A stretch of DNA of 33,598 bases from NCBI GenBank assembly GCA_030693565.1, contig JAUYAJ010000698.1, positions 1 to 33,598 of the forward strand. The letters run 5' to 3'. This DNA is from Rubrivivax sp. Its GTDB lineage: Bacteria; Pseudomonadota; Gammaproteobacteria; Burkholderiales; Burkholderiaceae_C. The notes under the pieces are model-generated. The model was not told the DNA's origin, searched no databases, and worked only from the letters and a program-made list of their open reading frames with translations. Position numbers and translations under genes: made by a program. Shown here piece after piece: positions 1-23,781 of the stretch (within the stretch, counting starts at the first letter, position 1; each line of letters opens with the position of its first letter).

Positions 1-602
<602 letters not shown>

Positions 603-611
603 CGGTGTGTC

Positions 612-2270
612 TCAGGTTCGGCGCCAGTCGAAGCCGGCTTTGTGCCCGCTGCCATAGGCGGTGAGCGCGCCTTGGGCGCCGACGGCGTTGGGGCGCTGGA
701 AGATCCAGTTCTGCCAGGCGCTGAGGCGGCCGAAGACGCGCGTGGCCAGGTTCTCCGGGCCGTTGAAGCGCAGATTGGCTTCCAGGCCGGTCAAGGCGTC
801 GGGCGACATCGCCACCCGCTGCTCGACGGCGATGCGCAACTCGTCGGCCCAGTCGATGTCGTCGGGATTGCGCGTCACCAGCCCGAGGGCGACGGCGGCG
901 TCGGCGTTCAGTGCCTGGCCGCAGTGCTGGCGCACCGCGGCCAGCGCCGCGGCTTCGTCGTGGAAGCGCCGGCCGAGCCGGCTTTGGCCGCCGACCATCG
1001 GATAGCGGCCGAAGTTGGCTTCGGTGACGACGATGGTGGGCGCGTTGGCGGCATCGCCCGGCAGCGCCAGCTGGTAGCTGCGGTCGCAGGCCAGCGCCAG
1101 CTCCAGCAGCGGGCCGGCAAAACACGAGCCGGGCTCGATCAGCGCAAACAGGCTGCGCGACGACAGGTCCAGCCGGCTCAGCGTGCGGCGCAGCAAGCCG
1201 ATGGTCTCGCGCACCCGCCAGTCGGCCTGGTGGGCTTGCAGCGTCGCGTCCAGTGCCAGCGCGGCGCCGATGTCGCCTTCGGTCTTGATGAGCCAGGTGC
1301 CGATCTCGGTCTCGTTGGTGCGCATCCACAGGATGGCGTCGTCGAGCTCGCGCGCCATCTGCAGCGGATACCAGGCGGCGCCGGCGCCTGTTATGCCTGC
1401 GATGTCGGTCGGCTGCCCGGCGGCCGGGCCGCGAACGGTGAAGGTGGCGCAGCGACCGCCGCGGTCCATCGCCACGCTGACATGTGCATGGTGAAGTGCA
1501 TCGGCCTCGAGCCGGCGCCGCAGCGGCGTCAGCGCCACCCCGCGGTCCGCTGCGGGCCGGTCGCTGCCGGCCGCCAGTGCAAGGGTGCGGTCCTGCACCG
1601 CGGCGGCGAAATCGTCTGGCTTGGCCAGCTGATCGACCAGCCGCCAGTCGAGCGCGCGCTGGCCGCGCACGCCTTCGACGCTGGTGCAGAACAGGTCGGC
1701 CAGGTCGTGGCGCACATGGCGCTTGTCGGTCAGCCGGGTCAGCCCGCCGGTGCCGGGCAGCACGCCCAGCAGCGGCACCTCGGGCAGGCTGATGTGGCTG
1801 GAGCGGTCGTCCACAAGCAGGATTTCGTCGCAGGCCAGCGCCAGTTCATAACCGCCGCCGGCGCAGGTGCCGTTGACGGCGGCCAGGAACTTCAGCCCGC
1901 TGTGGCGCGAAGCGTCTTCGATGGCGCCGCGCGTCTCGTTGGTGAACTTGCAGAAGTTCACCTTCCAGGCGTGGCTGCTGAGTCCGAGCATGAAGATGTT
2001 GGCGCCCGAGCAGAACAGCCTGGGCCGGGCGCTGGTGATGACGACGGCACGCACCGCGGGGTGTTCGAAGCGAATGCGGTTGACGGCGTCGTGCAGTTCG
2101 ATGTCGACGCCCAGGTCGTAGCTATTCAGCTTGAGCGCATAGCCCGGACGCAGCCCGCCGCCTTCGTCGGTGCCCAGCGCCAGCGTCGCGACCACGCCGT
2201 CGACGCTGAGCGTCCAGTGGCGGTAGGCGCCGGGGTGGGTCCGGTAGTCGACGGGCAGGGGCTGGTCCAA
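612..2270 (-). CDS. boxC: Benzoyl-CoA-dihydrodiol lyase (BoxC), enoyl-CoA hydratase/crotonase superfamily
   Basis: 552 aa ORF; crotonase-like segments (RLFCSGANIFMLG, NGTCAGGGYELALACDEI, SLPEVPLLGVLPGTGGLTRL); sits next to boxB and a boxR-like gene. Confidence 0.9.
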   Translation of the reverse strand: MDQPLPVDYRTHPGAYRHWTLSVDGVVATLALGTDEGGGLRPGYALKLNSYDLGVDIELHDAVNRIRFEHPAVRAVVITSARPRLFCSGANIFMLGLSSHAWKVNFCKFTNETRGAIEDASRHSGLKFLAAVNGTCAGGGYELALACDEILLVDDRSSHISLPEVPLLGVLPGTGGLTRLTDKRHVRHDLADLFCTSVEGVRGQRALDWRLVDQLAKPDDFAAAVQDRTLALAAGSDRPAADRGVALTPLRRRLEADALHHAHVSVAMDRGGRCATFTVRGPAAGQPTDIAGITGAGAAWYPLQMARELDDAILWMRTNETEIGTWLIKTEGDIGAALALDATLQAHQADWRVRETIGLLRRTLSRLDLSSRSLFALIEPGSCFAGPLLELALACDRSYQLALPGDAANAPTIVVTEANFGRYPMVGGQSRLGRRFHDEAAALAAVRQHCGQALNADAAVALGLVTRNPDDIDWADELRIAVEQRVAMSPDALTGLEANLRFNGPENLATRVFGRLSAWQNWIFQRPNAVGAQGALTAYGSGHKAGFDWRRT

Positions 2271-2305
2271 ACGTTTATCTCCTTGGCAAGCCGCTTGTGG
2301 ATTGA

Positions 2306-2320
2306 TGCAGCATAGTGCTT
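2306..2320. promoter_or_regulatory. Candidate BoxR operator between boxR and boxC (TGCAGCATAGTGCTT)
   Basis: TGCA-N6-TGCT; 12 of 15 positions identical to the motif at 3293-3307. Confidence 0.45.
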
Positions 2321-2329
2321 GTTGGATGG

Positions 2330-3262
2330 TCAGACCGCCATCCCCAGCGCCTGACGCACGCGCTGGCGCAGCGCCGCAAAGGTCTGCGTCAGCGGTTGTG
2401 CGCTGGTGTTCAATTGCAGGTCGGCCTTTGAATAAAAGGCCGCGCGGCCGGCGAGGATGCTGCGCAAGTCCTGCATCGCCTCGGCGCTGGCGGCCATCGG
2501 CCGCAGGTCACCCTGGGCGGTGACGCGGGCCATGTGGTCTTCGGCGTCGGCCTGCAGCCAGATGCTGGTGCACTGGGTCAGCAGGCGGTTGAAGCTGGCC
2601 GGGTCGGACACCAGGCCGCCAGGCGTGGCCAGCACCGCCTCGGGGTGTTTGAGCAACGCCTCGTCGAGGGCGCGGCGTTCGTAGCGGCGGTACGCATTCA
2701 TGCCGTACAAGGCCTGGATCTCGGCCGTGTTGCAGCCGGCGAGTTTTTCAACCTCGCGGCTCAGCTCGACAAAGGGCATCCCCAGATCCTCGGCCAGCAG
2801 CGCCCCCAGCGTGGACTTGCCGGCGCCGCGCAAACCCACCAGGGCGATGCGGCGCTGGCGGTTGGCGCTCGGCGCGGCGCCGTCGAGCCACTGGCCCAGC
2901 GCCAGGCGGGCGCGCTGCAGCGTGGCTTCGTCGCGCGAGCTCAGCAACTCGCGAATCAGCAGCCATTCCGGCGAGCTCGTCGTGACGTCACCCAGCAGTT
3001 CGGCCAGGCTGCAGTGCAGCGCTTGCGACAACTGCAGCAGCACCAGGATCGACACGTTGCCAGTGCCGTATTCGAGGTTGGCCAGGTGGCGCTCGGAGAC
3101 GTCGGCGGCAGTGGCGACGGCTTTGCGCGTCATGCCGCGTCGCGCCCGCAGCGCCCGCGCGCGCTCGCCCAGCGCCGCCAGGAAGGGGTGTTTGTCCTCC
3201 GGCTTGCCGGGGGCGGTGGGCGCTGGCGCGGGGCGGGCGCGGTCCGCAGTCAGGTTGGGCAC
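2330..3262 (-). CDS. boxR: BoxR/BzdR-type regulator: N-terminal XRE HTH plus C-terminal shikimate kinase-like domain
   Basis: HTH region (LGERARALRARRGMTRKAVATAADVSERHLANLEYGTGNVSILVLLQLSQAL) fused to a P-loop domain (IALVGLRGAGKSTLGALLAEDLGMPFVELSREVEKLAG). ORF opens at 3424, but a GTG at 3262 (VPNLTADRARP) is a more plausible start because the longer form overlaps the divergent gene. Confidence 0.85.
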   Translation of the reverse strand: MPNLTADRARPAPAPTAPGKPEDKHPFLAALGERARALRARRGMTRKAVATAADVSERHLANLEYGTGNVSILVLLQLSQALHCSLAELLGDVTTSSPEWLLIRELLSSRDEATLQRARLALGQWLDGAAPSANRQRRIALVGLRGAGKSTLGALLAEDLGMPFVELSREVEKLAGCNTAEIQALYGMNAYRRYERRALDEALLKHPEAVLATPGGLVSDPASFNRLLTQCTSIWLQADAEDHMARVTAQGDLRPMAASAEAMQDLRSILAGRAAFYSKADLQLNTSAQPLTQTFAALRQRVRQALGMAV

Positions 3263-3292
3263 GGCAAATCCCGCAGCTGAAACTTCATGAAG

Positions 3293-3307
3293 TGCACAAT
3301 AGTGCAT
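3293..3307. promoter_or_regulatory. Candidate BoxR operator between boxR and the hydrolase (TGCACAATAGTGCAT)
   Basis: TGCA-N6-TGCA, also a palindrome TGCAC-N4-GTGCA; centred in the divergent start region. Confidence 0.55.
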
Positions 3308-5539: not shown

Positions 5540-6289
5540 ATGAACCAAGAACAGCATCAGCAGATCAGCATCGCGGGGGTTGGCCATGAGGTGCAGCCAG
5601 CGTCGCAGCGCGAGTCCGTCCGTGTCGATGACGGCCGTCGTCGTCTCTTCAGGGGTGCGGGCGCCGGGGTTGGCGTGCTGTTGACGGTGAGTGCGAAGAC
5701 GGCGCTGGGCGGGACGGTTTGCCAAAGTCCTTCGGCCATGATGAGCGGGAACACGAGTCCGCGACCTGGCACGGGCGGGACTTGTTCGGGAGGGCGCTCG
5801 CCCGGGTACTGGAAGGTGCCGCAGCACAGTGGCAGCTGGAACGTGGCTGGGGGCCAGTACCCGACCTTCAAGAAGACAGTGGTCGAGTGTGCGAAGGGCA
5901 TGGGAAATTTAAGCATTGATGACGTCAAGAGCCATGGCACGCTGTTGGCTTCGGTTTTCCCCGGTGCTCCCAGCACCTATGGCTTGTGGGCCGTGCTTGC
6001 CTTTCCCAATGACCCGATCTTTGGCAACAAGGGTCAGTTGCTCAGGCACCTCAGCGCCGCCTGGTTGAACGCCGGTTACTTCAACGCCAGTGCTGCGCAG
6101 TATCCGATCAGCAAAGCACAGGTGGTTGCGATGTGGCATGCAGTGAAGTATGGCGGCCTGTATTGCCCGCCATCCATGCCAAACTGCGGCACCAAGGGCT
6201 GGAGTGCGGATCAGGTCAAGTCATACATTGAGGGGATGTACGATGTGAACGCCCAGATCAGCGAGCCTGACTTGTGCAAGACAACATAG
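5540..6289 (+). CDS. Hypothetical Tat-signal, Cys-containing secreted protein; candidate cargo of the downstream PqqD-like/HprK-related cassette
   Basis: MNQEQHQQ... start (alternative ATG at 5534); RRRLFRGAGAGVGVLLTVSAKTALG resembles a twin-arginine signal; mature part has six Cys and a SPGYWK motif. Followed directly by the PqqD-like gene on the same strand. Confidence 0.6.
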   Translation: MNQEQHQQISIAGVGHEVQPASQRESVRVDDGRRRLFRGAGAGVGVLLTVSAKTALGGTVCQSPSAMMSGNTSPRPGTGGTCSGGRSPGYWKVPQHSGSWNVAGGQYPTFKKTVVECAKGMGNLSIDDVKSHGTLLASVFPGAPSTYGLWAVLAFPNDPIFGNKGQLLRHLSAAWLNAGYFNASAAQYPISKAQVVAMWHAVKYGGLYCPPSMPNCGTKGWSADQVKSYIEGMYDVNAQISEPDLCKTT

Positions 6290-6337
6290 CGGTTGGCGGG
6301 GCATTTCCACCGCCGTCCGCTGGCAATCAACTTCGCA

Positions 6338-6664
6338 ATGAGTGGGTCTGCCCCGACCACGGGCTTGCTGTCCCTGGCCGCAGGGCGGCGCCTGCTCTGG
6401 GGCCCGCGCTGGAACTGTGCAGAAGCCGGGCTGGCGTTTGACGTCAACTCGGGCGACTTCTGGGTGCTGACTCCGTTGGCGCGTCAGATCATCGAACAAC
6501 TCCTTACCCAGGATCGACTCAGCGAGGCCGAGTTGCGCTCGCGAACTGCAGGTGATTCACGGCCCGCCGACTGGGCTGAGACCTTGGCCGCCGTGGTGCA
6601 GTCGGGACTCGTGCAACAGGCCGTCGACGTTGCCGACCAGCGCCACCCGAACCTGACGACTTGA
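6338..6664 (+). CDS. PqqD-like small protein (HPr-rel-A system PqqD family type)
   Basis: About 108 aa; PqqD-like pattern LAFDVNSGDFWVLTPLARQIIEQLL; stop overlaps the next start (TTGA at 6661-6664). Confidence 0.65.
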   Translation: MSGSAPTTGLLSLAAGRRLLWGPRWNCAEAGLAFDVNSGDFWVLTPLARQIIEQLLTQDRLSEAELRSRTAGDSRPADWAETLAAVVQSGLVQQAVDVADQRHPNLTT

Positions 6665-7521
6665 TCAACGCCGTCCTCCACATTCCGCCGTTTCGTGTCC
6701 GCTTGCGCTCACCGCTGGCGGAAGTCTGGCGCCATGTCGATCTCTTCTATCCGGGCGCTGACAGCGACGCCGTCGACATCTTCGTCGACTTCGACGTCGA
6801 GATTTCACATGGCGACGGTATCCGACGTCTTTGGCGTCGGCAGGCGCGCTTCCTGCTCGACGGCGCCGAGCCCTTCTTCCCGCTGCCCGCAGAGCAGGCC
6901 GCACCGATGTTCGAATGGGGGTTGAACTGGTGTGTCGCCCAGCGGCCGCTGGGCTACCTCGTGCTGCACGCAGCGGTCGTTGAACGCGACGGCGCCGCGC
7001 TGATGCTTCCGGGGTTTCCAGGTGCGGGCAAGAGCACCTTGTGCGCTGCGCTGACGCTGATCGATCGCTGGCGGCTGTTTTCGGACGAACTGGCGATCCT
7101 TGACCCGGCGGACGGCTTGCTGCTGCCTCACCCGCGGCCCATCTGCGTCAAGAACGACTCGATCGACCTCGTCGCCGCATTTCCGGGCAGCTGCGTTGGG
7201 CCCGTCTACCAAGACACGCGCAAAGGAACGATTGCACATCTGGCATGCGCACCGCAAGCACGCGAGCGTGCCGCCGAACGCGCGCGGGTGGCCTGGATCG
7301 TCTTTCCGCGCTTCGTCGCCGGGGGGCCGCTGCAGGTCGAGCGGATCAGCCGGGTTGAAGCGTTTGCCTGGATTTCTGAGCAGTCGTTCAACAAGGAGCG
7401 AATGGGCGAAGCCGGTTTCAAGGGGCTTTGCGATGTGCTCGACACTGCAGAGTGTTTTGAGCTGAGCTACGGCTCGACGGCGGACGCACTAGAGGGTATT
7501 GAGCGAATCTGCAGCCCATGA
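6661..7521 (+). CDS. HprK-related kinase (HprK-related kinase A type)
   Basis: Walker A LPGFPGAGKSTLCAALTL followed by LFSDELAILD, as in HprK-like kinases; TTG start overlapping the PqqD-like stop; ATGA overlap with the next gene. Confidence 0.75.
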   Translation: MINAVLHIPPFRVRLRSPLAEVWRHVDLFYPGADSDAVDIFVDFDVEISHGDGIRRLWRRQARFLLDGAEPFFPLPAEQAAPMFEWGLNWCVAQRPLGYLVLHAAVVERDGAALMLPGFPGAGKSTLCAALTLIDRWRLFSDELAILDPADGLLLPHPRPICVKNDSIDLVAAFPGSCVGPVYQDTRKGTIAHLACAPQARERAAERARVAWIVFPRFVAGGPLQVERISRVEAFAWISEQSFNKERMGEAGFKGLCDVLDTAECFELSYGSTADALEGIERICSP

Positions 7522-8630
7522 AGCTTGATGCGGACACGGCCGAAATGGTGGCGATACTGCGTGCCCCGGAGCGCACCGTCGGCTGGCGTGACACCGACTG
7601 GTCAAGACTCGTCGGCGCAGCGCGCGGCGCCAACTTGCTCGGCGCACTTGCCGAGCGGCTCCACTGTGCAGGCATTCAGCCAGCAGCAGCAGCGCGGCGA
7701 CACCTTGACGGTGCCAGGCAATTGAGCGAACGGCAGCGGCTTTCAGTGGTCTGGGAGGCCCATGGCCTGCGCTCCGTCCTTGCTGGCCTCGACGTTCCCG
7801 TGGTGCTGCTGAAGGGGGCGGCCTATGTTTTGGCGTATCCGGAGTTCGCCCGCGGGCGTTTGTTCGGCGACATCGATGTCCTGCTGCCTCGATCGGTTCT
7901 GGCCGAGGTCGAGAGCCAGCTGATGTTGAACGGCTGGGCCAGCGCCAAGCCCGATGCCTACGACCAGCGCTACTACCGCGAGTGGATGCACGAACTGCCG
8001 CCAATGGTGAACGTCCGCCGCGGGACCGTGCTCGACGTGCACCACACGATCCTGCCGCTGACGGCGCGCAACACCCCCGATCCGGCGGCGATCATCGGCC
8101 GTTCGCTGCCCGTCGAAGGGCTTGCCGGCCTGCGCGTACCCTGCCCCGAAGATCTCGTCGTGCACAGCATCACGCACCTGATGTACGAGGGCGAGCTGCA
8201 CAACGGCTTGCGCGATCTGCACGACATCGACGCCATGCTCAGATCGTTCTCGGTCCGCCCTGACTTCTGGTCGCGGCTGGCGGCGACCGCGGCGGACAAC
8301 GATCTGGCCGCGCCGGTCGCCAATGGCCTGCGTCTCGCTGCGCGGGTGTTCGACTCGCCGGTGCCGGCACAGGTGCTGGCCCGGCTCGACGATGGCTCGC
8401 ATCGCCGCACCTACCGGCTGCTAGAACCCTTGTACATGCTCGCGCTGCAGTCACCACAGACCACCAGGCCGCGCCTGCCGGTGCGGCTGGCCCGGTTGGC
8501 GATCTACTTGCGGGGGCACTGGCTGCGCATGCCGCTGCCGCAGCTTCTGCGGCACCTTGCGGTCAAGGCGTGGAAGGGGGCCAGGGCAGCGCCTGGCGCG
8601 ACGCCGCCCGAGCTTAACGCCCCCCCTTGA
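7518..8630 (+). CDS. Nucleotidyltransferase family protein (NTP_transf_5-like)
   Basis: VVLLKGAAYVLAYPEFARGRLFGDIDVLLPRS, VLDVHHTILPL, ITHLMYEGELHNGLRDLHDIDAML; ATGA overlap with the HprK-related gene. Confidence 0.75.
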   Translation: MKLDADTAEMVAILRAPERTVGWRDTDWSRLVGAARGANLLGALAERLHCAGIQPAAAARRHLDGARQLSERQRLSVVWEAHGLRSVLAGLDVPVVLLKGAAYVLAYPEFARGRLFGDIDVLLPRSVLAEVESQLMLNGWASAKPDAYDQRYYREWMHELPPMVNVRRGTVLDVHHTILPLTARNTPDPAAIIGRSLPVEGLAGLRVPCPEDLVVHSITHLMYEGELHNGLRDLHDIDAMLRSFSVRPDFWSRLAATAADNDLAAPVANGLRLAARVFDSPVPAQVLARLDDGSHRRTYRLLEPLYMLALQSPQTTRPRLPVRLARLAIYLRGHWLRMPLPQLLRHLAVKAWKGARAAPGATPPELNAPP

Positions 8631-9390
8631 GCAGCTCGGTCACAAATCGCACCGGGATCGCATAGGTGATGCCCGTGGGGTGGCTCAAGGCCGACTCCCG
8701 GGTGCCGCGGATCAGCACCATGTTGACGACGCCGACGACGCGCCCGGTCTGGACGTCGAGCACCGGTCCGCCGCTGTTGCCGGGGTAGGCGGTGGCGTCG
8801 AGCTGAAGGATGTCGAACGCGCCGTCGCGCAAAGTGGCGATGGCGCGTGCGCTCAGGCGCTCGGAGGTTGGCGCCGGCAGCGCGATGGCGCTGATCGACG
8901 CGATGATGCCGCGGTGCGTGACCGGCGCAAAGCCGAGCACGCCGCCGATCGGGAAGCCGATCAAGGCAATCGACGTGCCTTCGCGCGCCACCCCTGAGCC
9001 TTCGAGCGGCAGCGCCGGCAGCGGTGGACCTTCGATCTGCAGCAAGGCCAGGTCGTGGGTGCGGTCGCTGCTGATCAGCCTGGCCACGCGCCCTTCGAGT
9101 TCACGCCCGCCCTTGGGAATCTGGATCATCAAGGTCGGGCCCGAGGCGCTTTCCACCGCCCCGGGCAGGACGTGGAAGTTGGTGATCACCTGGGTGCCGT
9201 CGCCGACGACAAAACCCGTACCGCGAAAGCCGAAGCGCGGATTGTCGGTGGGGTTGTAGGTGCCGACGGCGACCACCGACGGCTTGGTGCTGGCGATGAG
9301 ATCGGGCAGCGACGCCTGCGCGGCGCTGCCGGCGAGCGCGACGGCGGCGAATGCCAGCCACCGCGCCGCCCGGCTCAGCAAACGCCTCAT
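8614..9390 (-). CDS. Signal-peptide-bearing trypsin-like serine protease (S1C/DegP-like catalytic domain, no PDZ seen)
   Basis: N-terminal hydrophobic signal; His in VITNFHVL, Asp in THDLALLQ, Ser in AYPGNSGGPVLD. Start overlaps the upstream TPR gene stop. Confidence 0.85.
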   Translation of the reverse strand: MRRLLSRAARWLAFAAVALAGSAAQASLPDLIASTKPSVVAVGTYNPTDNPRFGFRGTGFVVGDGTQVITNFHVLPGAVESASGPTLMIQIPKGGRELEGRVARLISSDRTHDLALLQIEGPPLPALPLEGSGVAREGTSIALIGFPIGGVLGFAPVTHRGIIASISAIALPAPTSERLSARAIATLRDGAFDILQLDATAYPGNSGGPVLDVQTGRVVGVVNMVLIRGTRESALSHPTGITYAIPVRFVTELLKGGR

Positions 9391-12152
9391 ACGCCCTTGA
9401 GCAATTCGCTGACTTCGGCGTGGTCGGTGAAGCGCTTGCCCAGCTTGGACAGCTTCTCAAGCTCGGAGCGCGCTTGCAGCTTGTCGCCGGCCTGCAGGTA
9501 CAGCCGCGCCAGGTTCAGCCGCATGCCAGCGTCGTCAGGCATGCGCTCGACGGTTTTCTTCTGCAGCTCCAGCGCCTTGGCAACCTGCTTGTCGGCCGCC
9601 AGCGACATCGCCAGCGTGTCCAGCAAGGCCGGCTGATCGGGCAGCAGCTGATTGGCCTTTTCCGCAAGGGCCAGCGAACCCGGCTTGGACTGTTTCACCA
9701 GCAGCCAGGCAATGTTGTTCAGCGCCAATGCGTTGTTGGGTTGCAGGCGGGCCACTTCGCGGTAGCGCAGTTCCGCCCCTGCCCAGTCCTTGCGGCCGAG
9801 CGCGGCGTCGCCGAGGTAGAAGCGGAACGCGATGTCATTGGCGTGCTCCTTTTCCCAGCTGGTGGCGAACCGGTCGGCTTCGTCGGCCTTGCCGGCGGTG
9901 TTCATCGCATGGTGGAGCTTGATCGCGGCCTCGGTCGACTTGGACTTCTGCAAGCCGGTGCGGAAGGCCGCCAGCGCTGCGTCCCAGTTCCTGCGCTGCA
10001 GCTCGACCTCGCCTTCGAGGTGGAAGCCGATGTCTTCGGCCGGACGCTCCTTCTGCACCGCGCGCGCGACCGCCAGCGCTTCCGGAAAGCGGCGATCGCT
10101 GTTCATCAGGCCGACCAGGCCGCGCTGCGCGACCAGCAGCTTGGGCGAGATCTCCAGCGCACGCTTGAGGCTGCGTTCGGCGGCGGCGAAGTCCTTCAGC
10201 CCGACATGGGCGTCAGCCTGGCCAAGCTGCGCGGCCGGCGAGTTCGGTTGCATCGTCGACAGCTTGTTGAAGGTCGACAGCGCTTGCTGGAAGTCGCTCG
10301 CGGCCAGCTGGCTGCGCCCCAGCGCATGCACCAGCTCGCGGCTGCTGGGAATGGCCGTCGTCGCGGCTTGTGCTGCCGCCAGAGCGGACTTGGTGTCGCG
10401 CGTGGCCAGATGGTGTTCGATCAGCTGCAGCCGCGGCCCGGCCTCGGTGGGAGCGGTCTTTACCGCCTGGGTGATCAGCGAGGTGATCTCCTGCGGGCTG
10501 CCGCCCGTGCGCGTCAGCAAGCTGGCCAGTGCCTGCATGGCACGGTGGTTTTTCGGCTCTGCCTTGAGCAAGTCGTCGAAGCGCTTGCGCGCGGCGTCGG
10601 GCTTCTTCTCGGTCAGGTCGAGCGCAGCCAGGCTGGCGACGGCGGGGAAATAGACCGGGTCGAGCTGCAACGCCTGCTCGAAGCTGCGGCGGGCGCCGGC
10701 GGCATCCTGGCGCATCATCAGCACGCGGCCGCGCAGGTTCGCCGCCAAAGGCTTGTCGGCCTGTTTGCGCTCGAGGGTGTCGATGGCCTTCAAAGCCTTG
10801 TCGAGCTCGTTGCGACGCAGATAGGTGGTCACCAGGGCCAGGTTGGCAGTGACGCCATCGTCGGCCGCAGACACCGCCTCGAGCTCGGCCAAGCCAGCAG
10901 CCGAGTTGCCCTTGCCGATCTGGCTCAAGGCCAGCGCGGTGCGGATGCGCGGATCGTCGGGCTTGGCTTTCGAAGCCCGCGTGAACAAGGCTTCGGCGCG
11001 CTTGACGTCGCCGGTGTGCAGGTAGGCTTCAGCGGCCAGCGTGACCATTTCGGCGCTGGCGCTGTCGCCCTCGATCACTGGCCGCAGCGTTTCCAGCGCC
11101 TTGTCGGCCTGACCGGTGCGCAGGTAGGTGCGGGCCAGCAACTGGCGCGCCATCGGCAGGCCGGGGGCCAGCTTGACGGCCTGGGCGAGCAAGGTCTCGG
11201 CCTGGGGTAGCGAACGCAGGTTGAACTCGGCGGCGCCCGCCAGTTGCAGCAGCAAGGGGTTGTTGGGGGCCAGTTGCAGCAAGGGCGCCGTCAGTTCACG
11301 GGTGGCCTGGTAGTCCTTGCGCAGAAAGGCCATCTGGGCGTCCAGCATGCGCGCCTGGGGGTGGTTGGGATGGGTCTTCTTCAGCTGCGCCACATGGGCT
11401 TGGGCCGCATCGAGTTCGCGCGCGGCGATCAGCAAGGTGACGATGCCTTGATGCGCCGCCATGGCGTCGCCTCGGCCTTCGACGGCTTTGCGATAGGCGG
11501 CCAGAGCCGCGGCCTGGTCGCGGGTGCCGAAGTGCAGGATCTCGCCCTTGAGCAACCAGGCGTCGGTGTTGCCGGGCTCGCGAGTGATGATGTCGTCGAG
11601 CAAGGCCAATGCGGCGGGGAAGTCGCCGGTGCCGGCGCTCATGCGCGCCTTCATGATCTTCGCCGGCGCATGGTCGGGCGCTGCCGCCAGCGCGTCGGCG
11701 ATCGCCTGGGCCGTCAGCTCGCGCTTGTCCTGGCGCGCGTAGGCCGCGGCCAGGGTCGTCTTCAGGTCGGCTTGCGCCGCCGCGTCGCTCAAGGTGACCT
11801 GGGCGTAGTTCTCGGCGACCTTGCGGTCTTCACCGGCCAGCAGCATGGCCTTGGCCAGCGCTGGCGTGACCAGGGTGTCCTGGTACTTCAGCTCGGCGGC
11901 CTTGCGAAGCTCCACGGCCGCGGCGACGGCGTCGCCGCTGTCGAGCAAGGCCTTTCCCAGCAGGTAGCGGGCCTCGGCGGACTGCGAGTTGCCTTGCAGC
12001 GCCGTCTTCAGCTGGATGATGGCCGCCGCAGGGTCCTTCTTCTCCAGATAAGTCTTGGCCGAGGCGATGAGGTCACCTTCGGACGGGCCGCTGCAGGCCT
12101 GGAGGCTGAACGCCAGCGCGATGACCAGCGCAGTGAGGCGAAGTGTGTGCAT
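9387..12152 (-). CDS. prsT: XrtA/PEP-CTERM system TPR-repeat lipoprotein (PrsT-like), copy 1
   Basis: MHTLRLTALVIALAFSLQAC lipobox; SGPSEGDLIASAKTYLEKKDPAAAIIQLKTALQ followed by many TPR units; downstream of prsK/prsR. Confidence 0.85.
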   Translation of the reverse strand: MHTLRLTALVIALAFSLQACSGPSEGDLIASAKTYLEKKDPAAAIIQLKTALQGNSQSAEARYLLGKALLDSGDAVAAAVELRKAAELKYQDTLVTPALAKAMLLAGEDRKVAENYAQVTLSDAAAQADLKTTLAAAYARQDKRELTAQAIADALAAAPDHAPAKIMKARMSAGTGDFPAALALLDDIITREPGNTDAWLLKGEILHFGTRDQAAALAAYRKAVEGRGDAMAAHQGIVTLLIAARELDAAQAHVAQLKKTHPNHPQARMLDAQMAFLRKDYQATRELTAPLLQLAPNNPLLLQLAGAAEFNLRSLPQAETLLAQAVKLAPGLPMARQLLARTYLRTGQADKALETLRPVIEGDSASAEMVTLAAEAYLHTGDVKRAEALFTRASKAKPDDPRIRTALALSQIGKGNSAAGLAELEAVSAADDGVTANLALVTTYLRRNELDKALKAIDTLERKQADKPLAANLRGRVLMMRQDAAGARRSFEQALQLDPVYFPAVASLAALDLTEKKPDAARKRFDDLLKAEPKNHRAMQALASLLTRTGGSPQEITSLITQAVKTAPTEAGPRLQLIEHHLATRDTKSALAAAQAATTAIPSSRELVHALGRSQLAASDFQQALSTFNKLSTMQPNSPAAQLGQADAHVGLKDFAAAERSLKRALEISPKLLVAQRGLVGLMNSDRRFPEALAVARAVQKERPAEDIGFHLEGEVELQRRNWDAALAAFRTGLQKSKSTEAAIKLHHAMNTAGKADEADRFATSWEKEHANDIAFRFYLGDAALGRKDWAGAELRYREVARLQPNNALALNNIAWLLVKQSKPGSLALAEKANQLLPDQPALLDTLAMSLAADKQVAKALELQKKTVERMPDDAGMRLNLARLYLQAGDKLQARSELEKLSKLGKRFTDHAEVSELLKGV

Positions 12153-12205
12153 GGAGTGCCCGGAGTTTCGTTTGGATTGAGGGGTCATCGAACAGCAGTG
12201 TCGGC

Positions 12206-14986
12206 TCACAGTGTCGCCAGCAGGCGCGCAACTTCGGCTTGCCCGCCGTACTGCGTGCCGAGATCGGCCAAGGCCTGCAGTTCCTTGCGGGCCTGGGCCT
12301 TGTCGCCTGACTGCAGGTAGATCTTGGCCAGCGACAGACGCAGGATGTGTTGATCGGGTTGGCCGGCCAGCGCTCGACGCTGAATCTCGATCGCGCGGAC
12401 GAACTGGCCTTCGGCGGCCAGAGCGAGCGCCAAGGTGTCCATCAGTGCCGGCCGTTCCGGGGCAATCTGGTTGGCCTTTTCTGCAAACGGCAGCGCACCT
12501 GACTTGTTCTGCTTCAGCAGCATGTAGGCAAGGTTATTGAGCGCCAGCGAGTTGTCGGGCTGCAGGTCGACCACAGCGCGGAAGCTGCGCTCGGCTGCCG
12601 CATGTTCTTCTCGCAGCAACGCGACATCGCCCAGATGGATGAGAAACACAACATCCTTGGGAAACTCCTTGACCCATTGCTGAGCCATCTGTTCGGCGGC
12701 GGCATGTTGTGCGCTGGCCACCAGCGTCCCATGCACTTTGGCCGCCAGTTGGGCGACGCGTTCACGCTGCAGGCCGGTGCGATAGGCTGCCAAGGCCGAG
12801 GTCCACTGCTCCTTGCGAGCGTGTACATCGCCTTCGTAAAGCCAGCCGACCGCTTGTTTGGGACGCTGTTTCTGGATCTCACGTGTGACCCGTAGCGCTG
12901 CGTCATGGCGACCACTGTCCAACTGAACTGCAATCAGTGCACGCTGTCCGTCCAAATGAGTCGGCTCGAGCTCAAGCAGTCGATTCAAGGTCTGTTCGGC
13001 CTCGCGATGGTTCTTCATCGCAAGTTGTACGTCGGCCAGCCGCAGGTAGGCGTTGGGTGATCGCGGCTCAAGAGCAACCAACTTGCGAAAGCTGATCAGA
13101 GCCTGCTCGCTGTCGCCGGACTTGAATTGCGCTCGCCCTAGCAAGGCCAGAAGTTGCGGATTGTTCGGGATGGTCGCGACGGCGTCCTGAGCGGCGCTGA
13201 GGGCGGTCTTGGCATCGTTGCGATCAAGAAGCCCCCGGATCAAGAGAATTCGCGGCGCGGGCTCCGTCGGACTCAGCCGGGCGGCTTCAGCGATGATCTT
13301 GCGCACATCCTCGGGCGTGCCGCCGGTGCGTTCGCGCAGTTCGCCTAAGGCGAGCATCGCTATCGTGTGCTTGGGGTCGACCTTGAGAATGGCCTCGAAG
13401 CGCTGTTTGGCTTGATTGGGCTTGGCGTCGATCAGGTCCTGCTCTGCCAGCGCCGTGGCAGCGGGAAAGTAAGTCGACTCGATCGCCAGAGCGCGCTCGT
13501 AGCTCTTTGCGGCGGCGCTCGTGTTCTGCTGCCGGGTGTAGATGCGGCCCCGCAGATAGCTTGCAAACGGTCGATTGGGCTGCTTGGACTCGAGCAGTTC
13601 GATGGCCTGGAGCGCCTTGTCAAGACTATTGCTCCGCATGCGGGCGCTGATCAAGGCCATGTCGGCGTAAGTGCCAGGGTCGCTGGCGGCGACGGCCTCG
13701 AGTTCAGCGAAGGCGGCACTGGCGTCGCCACCGGCCAGCCGCCGAAGCGCCACCGCGGTGCGGATTTGCGGGTCGTTCGGGTTGATCTTGGCGGCGCGGG
13801 CGAACAGTTGCTCGGCCTGCCGGGTGTCGCCCTTGAGCAGGTAGGCCTCGGCGGCAAGCGCCAGGCTGTCCGCGGTCGGCGAGCTGACTCCCAGCAGCGG
13901 CGCCAGCGCAGCGAGTGCCTTTTCGACCTGGCCTGAATGGAGGTAGGTCTGGGCCAGCAACCGCCGGGCCAGCGCCAGATCGGGCGCCAGTTGCACAGCC
14001 TTGGCCAGATGCTGCTCGGCTTGCAGCAGCTTGTTGTCCTGCAGCTCGATCGCCCCAGCCAGTTGCAGGATGCGGAAATTGTCAGGCACGAGCTTCAACA
14101 GCAGTTGGGCGATCTCGCGCGCCTTGGCCGACTCGCCCCGCATGTAGTAGAGCTGTGACTCGAAGAACTTGGTTTGCGGGTGATTGGGCAACACCTTGCG
14201 CAGCTCTTCGATTTGCGCTTCGGTGCGCTGGCTGTCGCGCTGCTCCATCAGCACCGCCAGCATGTTCATGTGGGCGGGCAGATAGCGCGGATCGGCGTCC
14301 AGCGCTTTGCGGAAATCGGCCAGTGCCGGCGCACGGGCACTGGCCGTGAACAGTGCCAGGCTGCCTTTGATCGTCCATGCTTCGGCGTTCTTTGGCTCCT
14401 TGGCCAAAACTTGCTCGCACAGCGCCAGCGCGCCGCTGAAGTTGCGCGCGGCGCCAAGCAGGCGGGCTTTGAGCAGCAGCGCTGGCGCGAAGTCCGGCGA
14501 CGCCGCCAACGCGTCCTCGACGACAACTTCCGCACGATCGTTGGCGCCGAGTTGCAGGTGAGCGGCGGCGACGCTGGTCTTCAGGTCGGCGATCGAGACC
14601 GGATCCTGAAGGCGTGTGCGCGAAAATTGCGCCACCACTTGCTTGGCGTCGCGCTGAAGCAGCAGCGCGCGCGCCAGCGCTGGCAGCACATCGTTGTCGT
14701 CGTGCTTCAGGTCCAGGGCTTTCTGAAGTTCCAGCGCCGCCGCTGCGGCGTCGCCGGATTCCAGCAAGGTCTTGCCCAACAGGAAACGTGCTTCGCCCGA
14801 TTGCGGGTTGCGTTGCAGCGCCGCCTTGAGCTGGATGATGCCGGCCTTGGTGTCCTTCTGCTCCAGATAGGACTTGGCCGAGGCGATGAGGCTGCGATCG
14901 GACTCGCCGGCGCAGCCGCCCATTGCCGTCACGACGAAGGCCATGCTGAGGGCGAGGGCGATGCGTGCGGTGCCTGTGGAATTCAT
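12206..14986 (-). CDS. prsT: XrtA/PEP-CTERM system TPR-repeat lipoprotein (PrsT-like), copy 2
   Basis: MNSTGTARIALALSMAFVVTAMGGC lipobox; AGESDRSLIASAKSYLEQKDTKAGIIQLKAALQRNPQSGEARFLLGKTLLESGD. The ORF extension to 15295 is out-of-frame overlap with prsR and is discarded. Confidence 0.85.
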   Translation of the reverse strand: MNSTGTARIALALSMAFVVTAMGGCAGESDRSLIASAKSYLEQKDTKAGIIQLKAALQRNPQSGEARFLLGKTLLESGDAAAAALELQKALDLKHDDNDVLPALARALLLQRDAKQVVAQFSRTRLQDPVSIADLKTSVAAAHLQLGANDRAEVVVEDALAASPDFAPALLLKARLLGAARNFSGALALCEQVLAKEPKNAEAWTIKGSLALFTASARAPALADFRKALDADPRYLPAHMNMLAVLMEQRDSQRTEAQIEELRKVLPNHPQTKFFESQLYYMRGESAKAREIAQLLLKLVPDNFRILQLAGAIELQDNKLLQAEQHLAKAVQLAPDLALARRLLAQTYLHSGQVEKALAALAPLLGVSSPTADSLALAAEAYLLKGDTRQAEQLFARAAKINPNDPQIRTAVALRRLAGGDASAAFAELEAVAASDPGTYADMALISARMRSNSLDKALQAIELLESKQPNRPFASYLRGRIYTRQQNTSAAAKSYERALAIESTYFPAATALAEQDLIDAKPNQAKQRFEAILKVDPKHTIAMLALGELRERTGGTPEDVRKIIAEAARLSPTEPAPRILLIRGLLDRNDAKTALSAAQDAVATIPNNPQLLALLGRAQFKSGDSEQALISFRKLVALEPRSPNAYLRLADVQLAMKNHREAEQTLNRLLELEPTHLDGQRALIAVQLDSGRHDAALRVTREIQKQRPKQAVGWLYEGDVHARKEQWTSALAAYRTGLQRERVAQLAAKVHGTLVASAQHAAAEQMAQQWVKEFPKDVVFLIHLGDVALLREEHAAAERSFRAVVDLQPDNSLALNNLAYMLLKQNKSGALPFAEKANQIAPERPALMDTLALALAAEGQFVRAIEIQRRALAGQPDQHILRLSLAKIYLQSGDKAQARKELQALADLGTQYGGQAEVARLLATL

Positions 14987-21155: not shown

Positions 21156-22037
21156 ATGTCAAATCTAAAAGTAGGCTCAGTCCTTGCCGGCGTGCTGATG
21201 TCCTTGGGCGCCGCCAGTTCGGCGCAGGCGTTTGCCATCGTCGCTGGCAATTACAAGATCACCATCGACGCGCACGATTCCGCGACGACGACTTATGCGC
21301 CAGCTGGGCCTGGTGTGAAGTGCGTGGATATTGCCACTTGCAACGCGGCCGGTATTCCGCCTGCCCTGGGTAGCATTGGTTCAGTGAACCCGGGCGCCGA
21401 CACCTTGGGCATCTTTTCAGTGGCATCGATTACGAACATCGTCACGTCCGCGAACTTCTTCACACGCGGTGTGGACGGCTTTCTGACTGGCATCTTCAGT
21501 AACTTGACGGACTTCTATGTCGAGAACACAGGGCTCGGCGGGGCGACCACAAACACCAACGCCTCCGGTGGAACGTTCAAGATGTGGCTCAACGCGGCCG
21601 ATTTCAATCCGTTGCTCGGTCCGACCGTTGCGGTGGGAAAAGATCTGAATGCGCACCTGTACCCGGGCATCAGCGGCGGCGCGCTGTATCTTGAAGGTAA
21701 CTTTGCCTCCGGGATTGGTGGGCCCGCCGATGCGGTGACCACGTGGGCAACGAACTTCAATTCCACGAGTTTGGTAGGTGGGGGCGCTGGATACCTCGAC
21801 TTCACCGGCGGCAGCGCGCTCGCGAATTTCAACACAGATTCCCACGTCGTGGCGCCTGGCGTCACCCGTGATGCACTTGCGCAGTTCACCTTCAGTCCCA
21901 TCGGGGCGGCGAGCGGTTGGACCGTCGTTGCGACCGGTGACATCCGCGGCAATGTGATTCCCGAGCCTGGCTCGTTGGCGCTGGTGGCTTTCGGCCTGTT
22001 GGCGGCCGGCGGACTGGCGCGCCGCAAGCAAGCTTGA
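21156..22037 (+). CDS. PEP-CTERM sorting domain protein (candidate exosortase substrate)
   Basis: N-terminal signal peptide (VGSVLAGVLMSLGAASSAQAFA) and C-terminal VIPEPGSLALVAFGLLAAGGLARRKQA: PEP motif, TM helix and basic tail. Confidence 0.93.
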   Translation: MSNLKVGSVLAGVLMSLGAASSAQAFAIVAGNYKITIDAHDSATTTYAPAGPGVKCVDIATCNAAGIPPALGSIGSVNPGADTLGIFSVASITNIVTSANFFTRGVDGFLTGIFSNLTDFYVENTGLGGATTNTNASGGTFKMWLNAADFNPLLGPTVAVGKDLNAHLYPGISGGALYLEGNFASGIGGPADAVTTWATNFNSTSLVGGGAGYLDFTGGSALANFNTDSHVVAPGVTRDALAQFTFSPIGAASGWTVVATGDIRGNVIPEPGSLALVAFGLLAAGGLARRKQA

Positions 22038-22356: not shown

Positions 22357-23781
22357 TCATTGCCCTGGCGGGGCCGAGATCAGATAGGGAAACTTGCGCT
22401 CGAAGTCGAGCATCGGTCGCCAGGGGAAGGCAGATGGTGCCGCCACAGTGATGTGCAGCGGCAGTTGACGCCCTGCGTTGATGAGCGCCTCGATTCGGTC
22501 GATCAATGCCGGGTCGGCCGCCGCGGCAGCGTTGGTGGCCTGCAAGGTCAGCGTCGCCGCGCCGCGGGTGTCGTGGGCGAGGCGGAAGGCGCCGCTGAGT
22601 TGGTCGGCGACCTCGTGTTCGGTATACAGTAGTTCCTTCAGCTCTTCGGCCGACGGCAGACCTGTGGCGCGGTCGCTGCTGCGGCCGCAGACAATTGCCA
22701 CGGGAAGCCACGGCGGTTCGCAGCCTGCAATGGCGGCGGCCGTGCAGACGGCGGTGCGCTCGACCAGGCGGCCGACGTCGCCGGTGGCGTAGCGCGGCAG
22801 CGGGATCACCGCATCGGCGTCGATGATGGTGAAGCAGAGCTCGCCGAAGCCGTTGGCGTCTGGGTTCAGCACCTCGACATGGCAGCGCAGCGGGTTGTAG
22901 CAGAACACCGAGGGCATCGACGGCCCTGCGGCCCGGCCGGCGAGCAGCTGTTCGACGCCGGCCTGGTTGCGCATGGCGCGTCGGAGCTGGATCGTCTCGC
23001 GGGTTTCGAAGAGCAGGTTGAGGCCGAGTTCGCCGACGCCGAAGGAGCTCAGCACGGCGCGCGACCCGCCGCCGTTCAAGTCGATGCCCATCTTGGCCGC
23101 GATGTATTCGCGCTGCGACTCGACCAGCACTTCCTCGCCGATGATCACGCTGGTGTTGAGCGCCCGCCAGTCGATCTGATTCGCTTCTCCCTGCGCCAGC
23201 AGGCGGCGGATGAACAAGGGGTCGCTGCAGATCAGGGTCTGCTCGAAGCGTGGACCGACGTCGCGCAAGATGGCGCAAGCCATGTCCTCGCGCACGCTGA
23301 CGTTGGCCACGGTGACGGCGCGGGAGGAGAACACCACGCCCATCGGCAGGCAATTGACGAGCAGCGTCGAGCGGTCATCGACACCGAACGCGTCCTGCAA
23401 ACCGAGGTCGATGTTGAACCAGGCCCGTTCGTGCGACTTGCGCGCGCTCAGGCGGAAGCCGAAGGTGCGGCCGCCGCGGCCCGAACTGGTCAGCACGTCG
23501 GCGAGGTTGGTGGCCGGCAACTCGCGCGACAACTCGTCGACCGTGAAGCGGCCGAAGGTGTTGTCTTTGTCCAGCACCGGCAGGGCGTCGAACTCGGCCC
23601 GCGCGGCGTCGACGCCCGCCTCAAGCAAGAGCTGTTGGTAGGCGCGACTGCTGCGTGCCGCGCATTCGGCCATGCGCGCAGCGCCAGCGCGGCTGCGCGC
23701 CAGCATGCGTTCGATCGGCATGCCTCTGGCCAGGTGCAGCAGCACTCGCCGGACCAGCCGACGGCCGAAGGCCAGTGTCAT
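22357..23781 (-). CDS. Adenylate-forming enzyme (phenylacetate-CoA ligase/F390 synthetase-like)
   Basis: LPVLDKDNTFGRFTVDEL, TSSGRGGRTFGFRLS, SSFGVGELGLNLLFETRE, PRYATGDVGRLVE fit the PaaK-like AMP-binding layout; immediately downstream of the acyltransferase on the same strand. Confidence 0.65.
   Translation of the reverse strand: MTLAFGRRLVRRVLLHLARGMPIERMLARSRAGAARMAECAARSSRAYQQLLLEAGVDAARAEFDALPVLDKDNTFGRFTVDELSRELPATNLADVLTSSGRGGRTFGFRLSARKSHERAWFNIDLGLQDAFGVDDRSTLLVNCLPMGVVFSSRAVTVANVSVREDMACAILRDVGPRFEQTLICSDPLFIRRLLAQGEANQIDWRALNTSVIIGEEVLVESQREYIAAKMGIDLNGGGSRAVLSSFGVGELGLNLLFETRETIQLRRAMRNQAGVEQLLAGRAAGPSMPSVFCYNPLRCHVEVLNPDANGFGELCFTIIDADAVIPLPRYATGDVGRLVERTAVCTAAAIAGCEPPWLPVAIVCGRSSDRATGLPSAEELKELLYTEHEVADQLSGAFRLAHDTRGAATLTLQATNAAAAADPALIDRIEALINAGRQLPLHITVAAPSAFPWRPMLDFERKFPYLISAPPGQ

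Follow-up and report, generated by a model that had tools for sequence, protein, structure and literature searches.

Known systems related to the cassette

In gene clusters for phosphorylated lasso peptides, HPr-kinase homologues phosphorylate the C-terminal Ser of the lasso precursors, the nucleotidyltransferase PsmN transfers one or two hexoses onto the phosphate of that Ser, and a B1/PqqD protein acts as the leader-binding chaperone (PMC9266682, PMC8498205). The glycosylation by PsmN could alternatively be a nucleotidylation followed by the action of a host enzyme (PMC9266682). Ruminal lasso clusters are surrounded by the same kinds of genes, i.e., those for PqqD, an HPr-kinase homologue, and a nucleotidyltransferase (PMC7533575). 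The cassette described below likewise combines a PqqD-type protein, an HPr-kinase homologue, and a nucleotidyltransferase, as do the paeninodin (PadeK) and pseudomycoidin (PsmK/PsmN) clusters.

A further set of this kind is named HPr-rel-A in NCBIfam (TIGR04352, HprK-related kinase A; TIGR04353, PqqD family peptide chaperone). These names give no substrate, and the genes adjoining the enzymes, which we refer to here as cargos, are annotated as "hypothetical protein." Searches of the literature for HPr-rel-A, for its kinase, PqqD, and nucleotidyltransferase families, and for exosortase together with PqqD found no description of the system, and a search for RRE combined with twin-arginine found nothing.

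A four-gene cassette in a Rubrivivax contig

We analyzed a 33,598-nucleotide stretch of Rubrivivax sp. (contig JAUYAJ010000698.1; referred to here as the window) from an assembly of 737 contigs with 75.8% completeness. Positions 5540 to 8630 contain the four genes of the original prediction in the order that it gave (Table 1), and the 4-nt overlaps that it reported between the last three genes are present as TTGA (6661 to 6664) and ATGA (7518 to 7521). The same gene set was found again in dozens of genomes, which argues against a chance grouping. A promoter scan at the locus found none, and a sigma-54-like pattern was discarded, as its frequency was no greater than that expected by chance.

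Table 1. Features of the four-gene cassette in the window
Feature	Position	Strand	Remarks
Cargo (249 aa; GYW class; RR [Tat-like] leader; proposed substrate)	5540..6289	+	ATG at 5540; no Pfam or NCBIfam family matched
Leader/signal region RVDDGRRRLFRGAGAGVGVLLTVSAKTALGG, within cargo	5621..5713	+	Twin-arginine signal by sequence; proposed PqqD recognition segment
Ser motif S65-A-M-M-S69, within cargo	5732..5746	+	Predicted modification site; neither Ser varies among 27 aligned cargos of the GYW class
PqqD-like (RRE-type) protein, TIGR04353-related	6293..6664	+	Start uncertain: TTG 6293, ATG 6338, or TTG 6365
HprK-related kinase A (TIGR04352)	6661..7521	+	No variation in Walker A G121/G123/K124/T126 or in D142-E143 across 25 aligned sequences
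NTP_transf_5 nucleotidyltransferase (PF14907)	7518..8630	+	No variation in D118, D120, D173, H175, or H176 across 21 aligned sequences

The window kinase is a clear member of HPr-rel-A (TIGR04352, 350.8 bits; cut-off, 200), the name that the original prediction correctly gave to the trio. It scored far lower against two related HprK-like families, namely, HprK-related kinase B of the GAK system (TIGR04355; 19 of 200 bits) and SynChlorMet ScmC (TIGR04249; 27 of 125 bits). PqqD and NTP_transf_5 accompany it, as in the named plasmid records; the nucleotidyltransferase matched PF14907 with 175.5 bits (cut-off, 31.2). Given that the PqqD-like protein matched TIGR04353 with 22.8 bits, below the cut-off of 35, it is probably a divergent member of that family. 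Its relatives in the same position at other loci scored 52 to 68 bits and align with the window protein.

The cargo, whose nearest relatives are from Burkholderiales (Roseateles and Pelomonas), has an RRR with a hydrophobic stretch behind it and contains an SPGYWK sequence and six Cys residues (61, 82, 117, 209, 216, and 246). An AlphaFold model based on four sequences (mean pLDDT, 47.6) was confident for the C-terminal helical part only, and Foldseek with this model returned nothing meaningful. Whereas lasso substrates are short peptides, the cargos are exported proteins with an RR signal and about 110 to 250 residues after the leader. Among the neighbors of the cassette in the window, neither a B2 protease nor a lasso cyclase was recognized, and a lasso peptide cluster was thus ruled out.

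Linkage of the cargo to the proposed modifying enzymes

The kinase was detected above its cut-off in 50 of 300 genomes of the order (Burkholderiales) and in 61 of 399 genomes of the phylum (Pseudomonadota). We examined most of these kinase loci together with three relatives of the cargo found by tblastn, every one of which adjoins the trio of PqqD, kinase, and nucleotidyltransferase genes; 93 loci contained the kinase. Cargos were detected with iterated profiles and a leader profile, and the remainder were read by eye. A protein with an RR leader adjoins the enzymes in 88 of the 93 loci, and the exact order cargo-PqqD-kinase-nucleotidyltransferase occurs in 69 (Burkholderiales and other Pseudomonadota). 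The expectation that the cargo would be tied to the trio elsewhere was thus borne out. Within stretches of 12 to 14 kb, ORFs other than the cargo barely scored with the leader profile. The arrangement is also found on two complete plasmids, i.e., one of Sphingomonas parapaucimobilis, with a "hypothetical protein" ending in YTCFLSVQNPRT followed by PqqD, kinase, and nucleotidyltransferase genes, and one of Vibrio alfacsensis, with a "hypothetical protein" containing CSITSCMSGNAS ahead of the kinase and nucleotidyltransferase genes.

In the reverse direction, whole genomes were searched with profiles built from trio-linked cargos, which have limited sensitivity for unlinked relatives of other kinds. 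The GYW-class profile matched 41 of the 300 genomes of the order, 38 of which carry the trio (38 of 50 genomes with the trio versus 3 of 250 without; Fisher's P = 5e-34). Two of the three trio-less matches (G108 and G184) were partial and lay inside ORFs of >1,000 aa, and the third (G231) was a weak leader match in a 566-aa ORF. The short-class profile matched 41 of the 399 genomes of the phylum, including 39 with the trio (39 of 61 versus 2 of 338; P = 8e-36), and both exceptions (G511 and G639) were weak. On the basis of this co-occurrence, the presence of the cargo tracks the trio and not merely the locus.

Five genomes have a kinase locus with neither cargo nor PqqD beside it and carry the cargo on another contig (G367, G379, G420, G551, and G320, where the contig ends inside the nucleotidyltransferase gene). 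Four of these five separated cargos have a PqqD gene alongside: three adjoin it directly (L164, L166, and L168), and in G551 it lies beside the site of the cargo match, the cargo ORF itself not being called. No PqqD was seen beside the fifth, in G379. Furthermore, cargo and PqqD form a pair divergent from the kinase at one locus (L116) and behind the nucleotidyltransferase at another (L084), whereas seven loci of the form cargo-kinase-nucleotidyltransferase gave no PqqD match with the profile used. This genetic pairing points to PqqD as the probable partner of the cargo. A second cargo-PqqD pair in G478 (L169, besides L122) suggests that one kinase and nucleotidyltransferase may serve several substrates.

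Gene content thus strongly supports the cargo as the predicted substrate of the trio. Of the original proposal of a protein-modification system with the Tat protein as substrate, the link of that protein to the trio stands; its substrate status and the chemistry are what we infer.

A Ser motif common to cargos with unrelated mature parts

The SPGYWK sequence and six Cys residues, previously put forward as the hallmark of the cargo, turned out to be confined to closely grouped cargos and to part of what defines the GYW class in common with them. The mature parts of the cargos fall into about 13 groups without BLASTP similarity to each other, and the features in common are the leader and a Ser motif.

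The motif, [S/T]-small-x-x-S, is present in 86 of 88 cargos, either at the C terminus (SCWxSF, TCFASL) or right behind the signal (CxxSGxxSGN). A script found 85 of these; the 86th (SGFMS at L072) was missed through a mis-set signal end. Shuffles of the same 88 proteins contained the motif in 18% of cases and its C-terminal form in 1.8%, a comparison to be read with the patterns having been drawn up after the sequences were seen and with cargos within one group being relatives and not independent counts. The C-terminal form was found in eight mutually unrelated groups. Short cargos end in SCWTSF-like sequences, in which C157 and S160 (L104 numbering) are invariant and S156 and W158 nearly so among 24 aligned sequences. 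Alphaproteobacterial cargos end in TCFASLQ, and the other C-terminal ends include SAWNSV, SSWSSL, SCIVSI, and TALQSF. In GYW cargos, CxxS[GA]xxSGN follows the signal and contains the two invariant Ser residues (Table 1). Two cargos (L070 and L134) have no clean Ser motif, and the SSYPSV match at L135 may be due to chance. The cargo at L070 (8179 to 8625, minus strand) has the leader and a mature part rich in Gly/Asn and in Ser, with a poly-Ser tail in place of the motif.

The motif Ser of the short cargos is C-terminal, as is the target Ser of phosphorylated lasso clusters (PMC9266682, PMC8498205). Because the Ser lies near the N terminus in GYW cargos, a single kinase specificity would need to cope with two positions, which counts against the modification proposed below. 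For the window, we favor S69 (nt 5744 to 5746) as the predicted modified residue, with S65 (nt 5732 to 5734) as the alternative. The window cargo ends in CKTT, and its C-terminal Ser/Thr was considered as a target by analogy with paeninodin but was ruled out, as it is not conserved.

A GYW/AALLNA-like domain was also observed inside very large proteins without an adjacent trio (L174, 2446 to 6342; L176, 16 to 8652; L035 to L037), indicating that the mature GYW domain is not exclusive to the HPr-rel-A system. At L174, the genes that come next, for an ABC transporter and a membrane fusion protein, resemble those of type I secretion.

Enzymes and proposed modification steps

In addition to the Walker A and D142-E143 residues of the kinase, H103 is invariant among the 25 sequences, and the kinase profile matched HprK, the bifunctional HPr kinase/phosphorylase, in the PDB (1jb1; E = 1.5e-4). 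The PqqD profile matched the lasso B1 proteins TfuB1 (6jx3; E = 5.4e-6) and TbiB1 (5v1u; E = 0.0044). By sequence, the PqqD-like protein thus resembles the leader-binding proteins of lasso peptide systems, which fits the earlier suggestion of a peptide chaperone for a modifying enzyme. Residues D118, D120, and D173 of the window enzyme are the three acidic residues of nucleotidyltransferases, and PsmN is presumably a member of the same PF14907 family. A sequence search of the PDB with NTP_transf_5 yielded no close solved relative.

We consider it probable that the cassette is an HPr-rel-A system that acts on an exported cargo as a RiPP-like protein-modification cassette; the chemistry that follows is predicted from sequence. 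The PqqD-like protein would bind the N-terminal RR leader and present the cargo. HprK-related kinase A would then phosphorylate a Ser in the [S/T]-small-x-x-S motif (S69, or S65, in the window), action of the kinase on Ser being the most likely first step. The NTP_transf_5 enzyme would attach either a hexose or a nucleotide, at the phosphate itself or next to it. Finally, the cargo would be exported by Tat, with cleavage of the leader near SAKTALGG.

Nucleotide transfer without any sugar is a serious competitor for the third step, although we hold it somewhat short of an even chance: the kinase would phosphorylate the cargo Ser and the nucleotidyltransferase would adenylylate or nucleotidylate the same substrate, or act first. 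The retention of the three acidic residues is consistent with such a reaction. An AlphaFold model of the enzyme (mean pLDDT, 76) gave only weak Foldseek matches (E above 0.1), among which were the nucleotidyltransferases 5uvd and 5cfu, and nucleotidylation by PsmN together with a host enzyme is allowed for in PMC9266682. In contrast, the sole characterized pairing of such enzymes placed hexose on the phosphate (PMC9266682, PMC8498205).

Specificity of the leader

The consensus of 27 aligned leaders is xRRxLxKGxxAxxPVIxTLxSxxALA, in which the RR pair is invariant or almost so. By sequence, the leaders have the features of Tat signals (twin-arginine, a hydrophobic stretch, and small residues at the end), and TIGR01409 gave weak matches to a few members. 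As a leader-only control, a 37-residue profile was searched in six frames through 12 entire genomes. The cargo was the top match in 11 of these (E = 6e-15 to 1.2e-7), and the best match to anything else in the 12 genomes had an E value of 4.5e-4. The training set included some of the tested cargos; those outside it had E values of 1.2e-13 (G107), 3.2e-13 (G050), 1.7e-8 (G432), and 1.2e-7 (G088). The profile failed for G218 (E = 0.1).

An ordinary Tat signal, conserved through Tat export alone and with PqqD binding the cargo elsewhere, would also have the RR pair, the hydrophobic stretch, and the AxA-like end, which are general Tat features. This explanation is unlikely given that, in 11 of the 12 genomes, other proteins of the same genome scored worse by a factor of 1,000 or more and that a T-L-x-S segment is common to cargos whose mature parts are unrelated. 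The specificity of the leader exceeds that of a general RR signal, which would be expected if a reader besides Tat exists, and PqqD is the candidate for that reader.

Association with exopolysaccharide loci

The window is an XrtA/PEP-CTERM exopolysaccharide (EPS) locus that contains PrsT (twice), PrsR, PrsK, an EpsB-type glycosyltransferase, EPS export and chain-length proteins, and FemAB. Its neighborhood is like that of the described XrtA/PEP-CTERM system, but the cargo has no visible PEP-CTERM tail. Within Burkholderiales, XrtA scored above its cut-off in 46 of 50 trio genomes compared with 26 of 250 others (P = 1e-30); G000 has a truncated XrtA copy one bit under the cut-off. XrtA/EPS-type genes were close by in about half of the loci examined, whereas none were in view at the alphaproteobacterial-type loci (L136 to L143).

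These figures could also be explained by a trio that modifies another target, e.g., an exopolysaccharide component, the cargo being merely a coregulated surface protein of the locus. We consider this improbable, as the cargo accompanies the trio and its own PqqD with no EPS gene near in Alphaproteobacteria (L136 to L141) and on the Sphingomonas plasmid (L177), and as the leader is system specific. A reversible phosphorylation of cargo or PqqD that governs export, without permanent decoration, would suit a relative of the bifunctional HprK but is very doubtful, since it leaves the nearly always present nucleotidyltransferase unexplained and neither a regulator nor a phosphatase partner was found adjoining the trio.

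Returning to the modification of the cargo itself, the position of many loci in or beside XrtA exopolysaccharide loci suggests a product that probably belongs to the cell surface or the matrix. Tentatively, and with rather less confidence than in the cassette as such, we propose a protein-sized RiPP-like system in which the Tat signal doubles as an RRE-bound leader. One PqqD/kinase/nucleotidyltransferase set would serve many unrelated proteins, placing a phospho-sugar or phospho-nucleotide on their Ser motif ahead of their folded export to the surface of exosortase-A bacteria. HPr-rel-A, hitherto a name only, would thereby gain a newly recognized family of predicted substrates, with a leader, a target residue, and a partner (PqqD). 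Should the proposal prove true, the reach of RRE-guided chemistry would widen from small peptides to proteins exported by Tat, and the exosortase-A surface system would gain a phospho-modification.

Neighboring genes

A relative of lasso cyclases, the XrtA amidotransferase TIGR03108, is encoded near the trio, often directly after the nucleotidyltransferase, at L104 (7721 to 9613) and 22 other loci. The resulting order of substrate, PqqD, kinase, nucleotidyltransferase, and AsnB-like genes recalls phosphorylated lasso clusters. We rejected this neighbor at L104 as a lasso cyclase (TIGR03108, 1,018 bits; cyclase, 239 of 525 bits).

In the window, a short trypsin-like (HtrA/DegP-type) protease gene (8614 to 9390, minus strand) ends against the nucleotidyltransferase gene, and a similar gene was observed at 18 of the 93 trio loci; this protease might process the cargo. 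A tandem pair of PrsT TPR lipoproteins lies at 9387 to 14986 (minus strand); neither is truncated, and they scored 794 and 767 bits. Farther along, an exported protein (21156 to 22037, plus strand) ends in VIPEPGSLALVAFGLLAAGGLARRKQA, a PEP-CTERM tail by eye, and lies beside a gene for a 474-aa protein (22357 to 23781, minus strand) with no NCBIfam model at an E value below 1e-10. Upstream of the cassette (1 to 3307, minus strand) are aerobic benzoyl-CoA genes, including BoxC (TIGR03222, 897 bits), and a regulator of benzoate catabolism with a shikimate-kinase-like domain.
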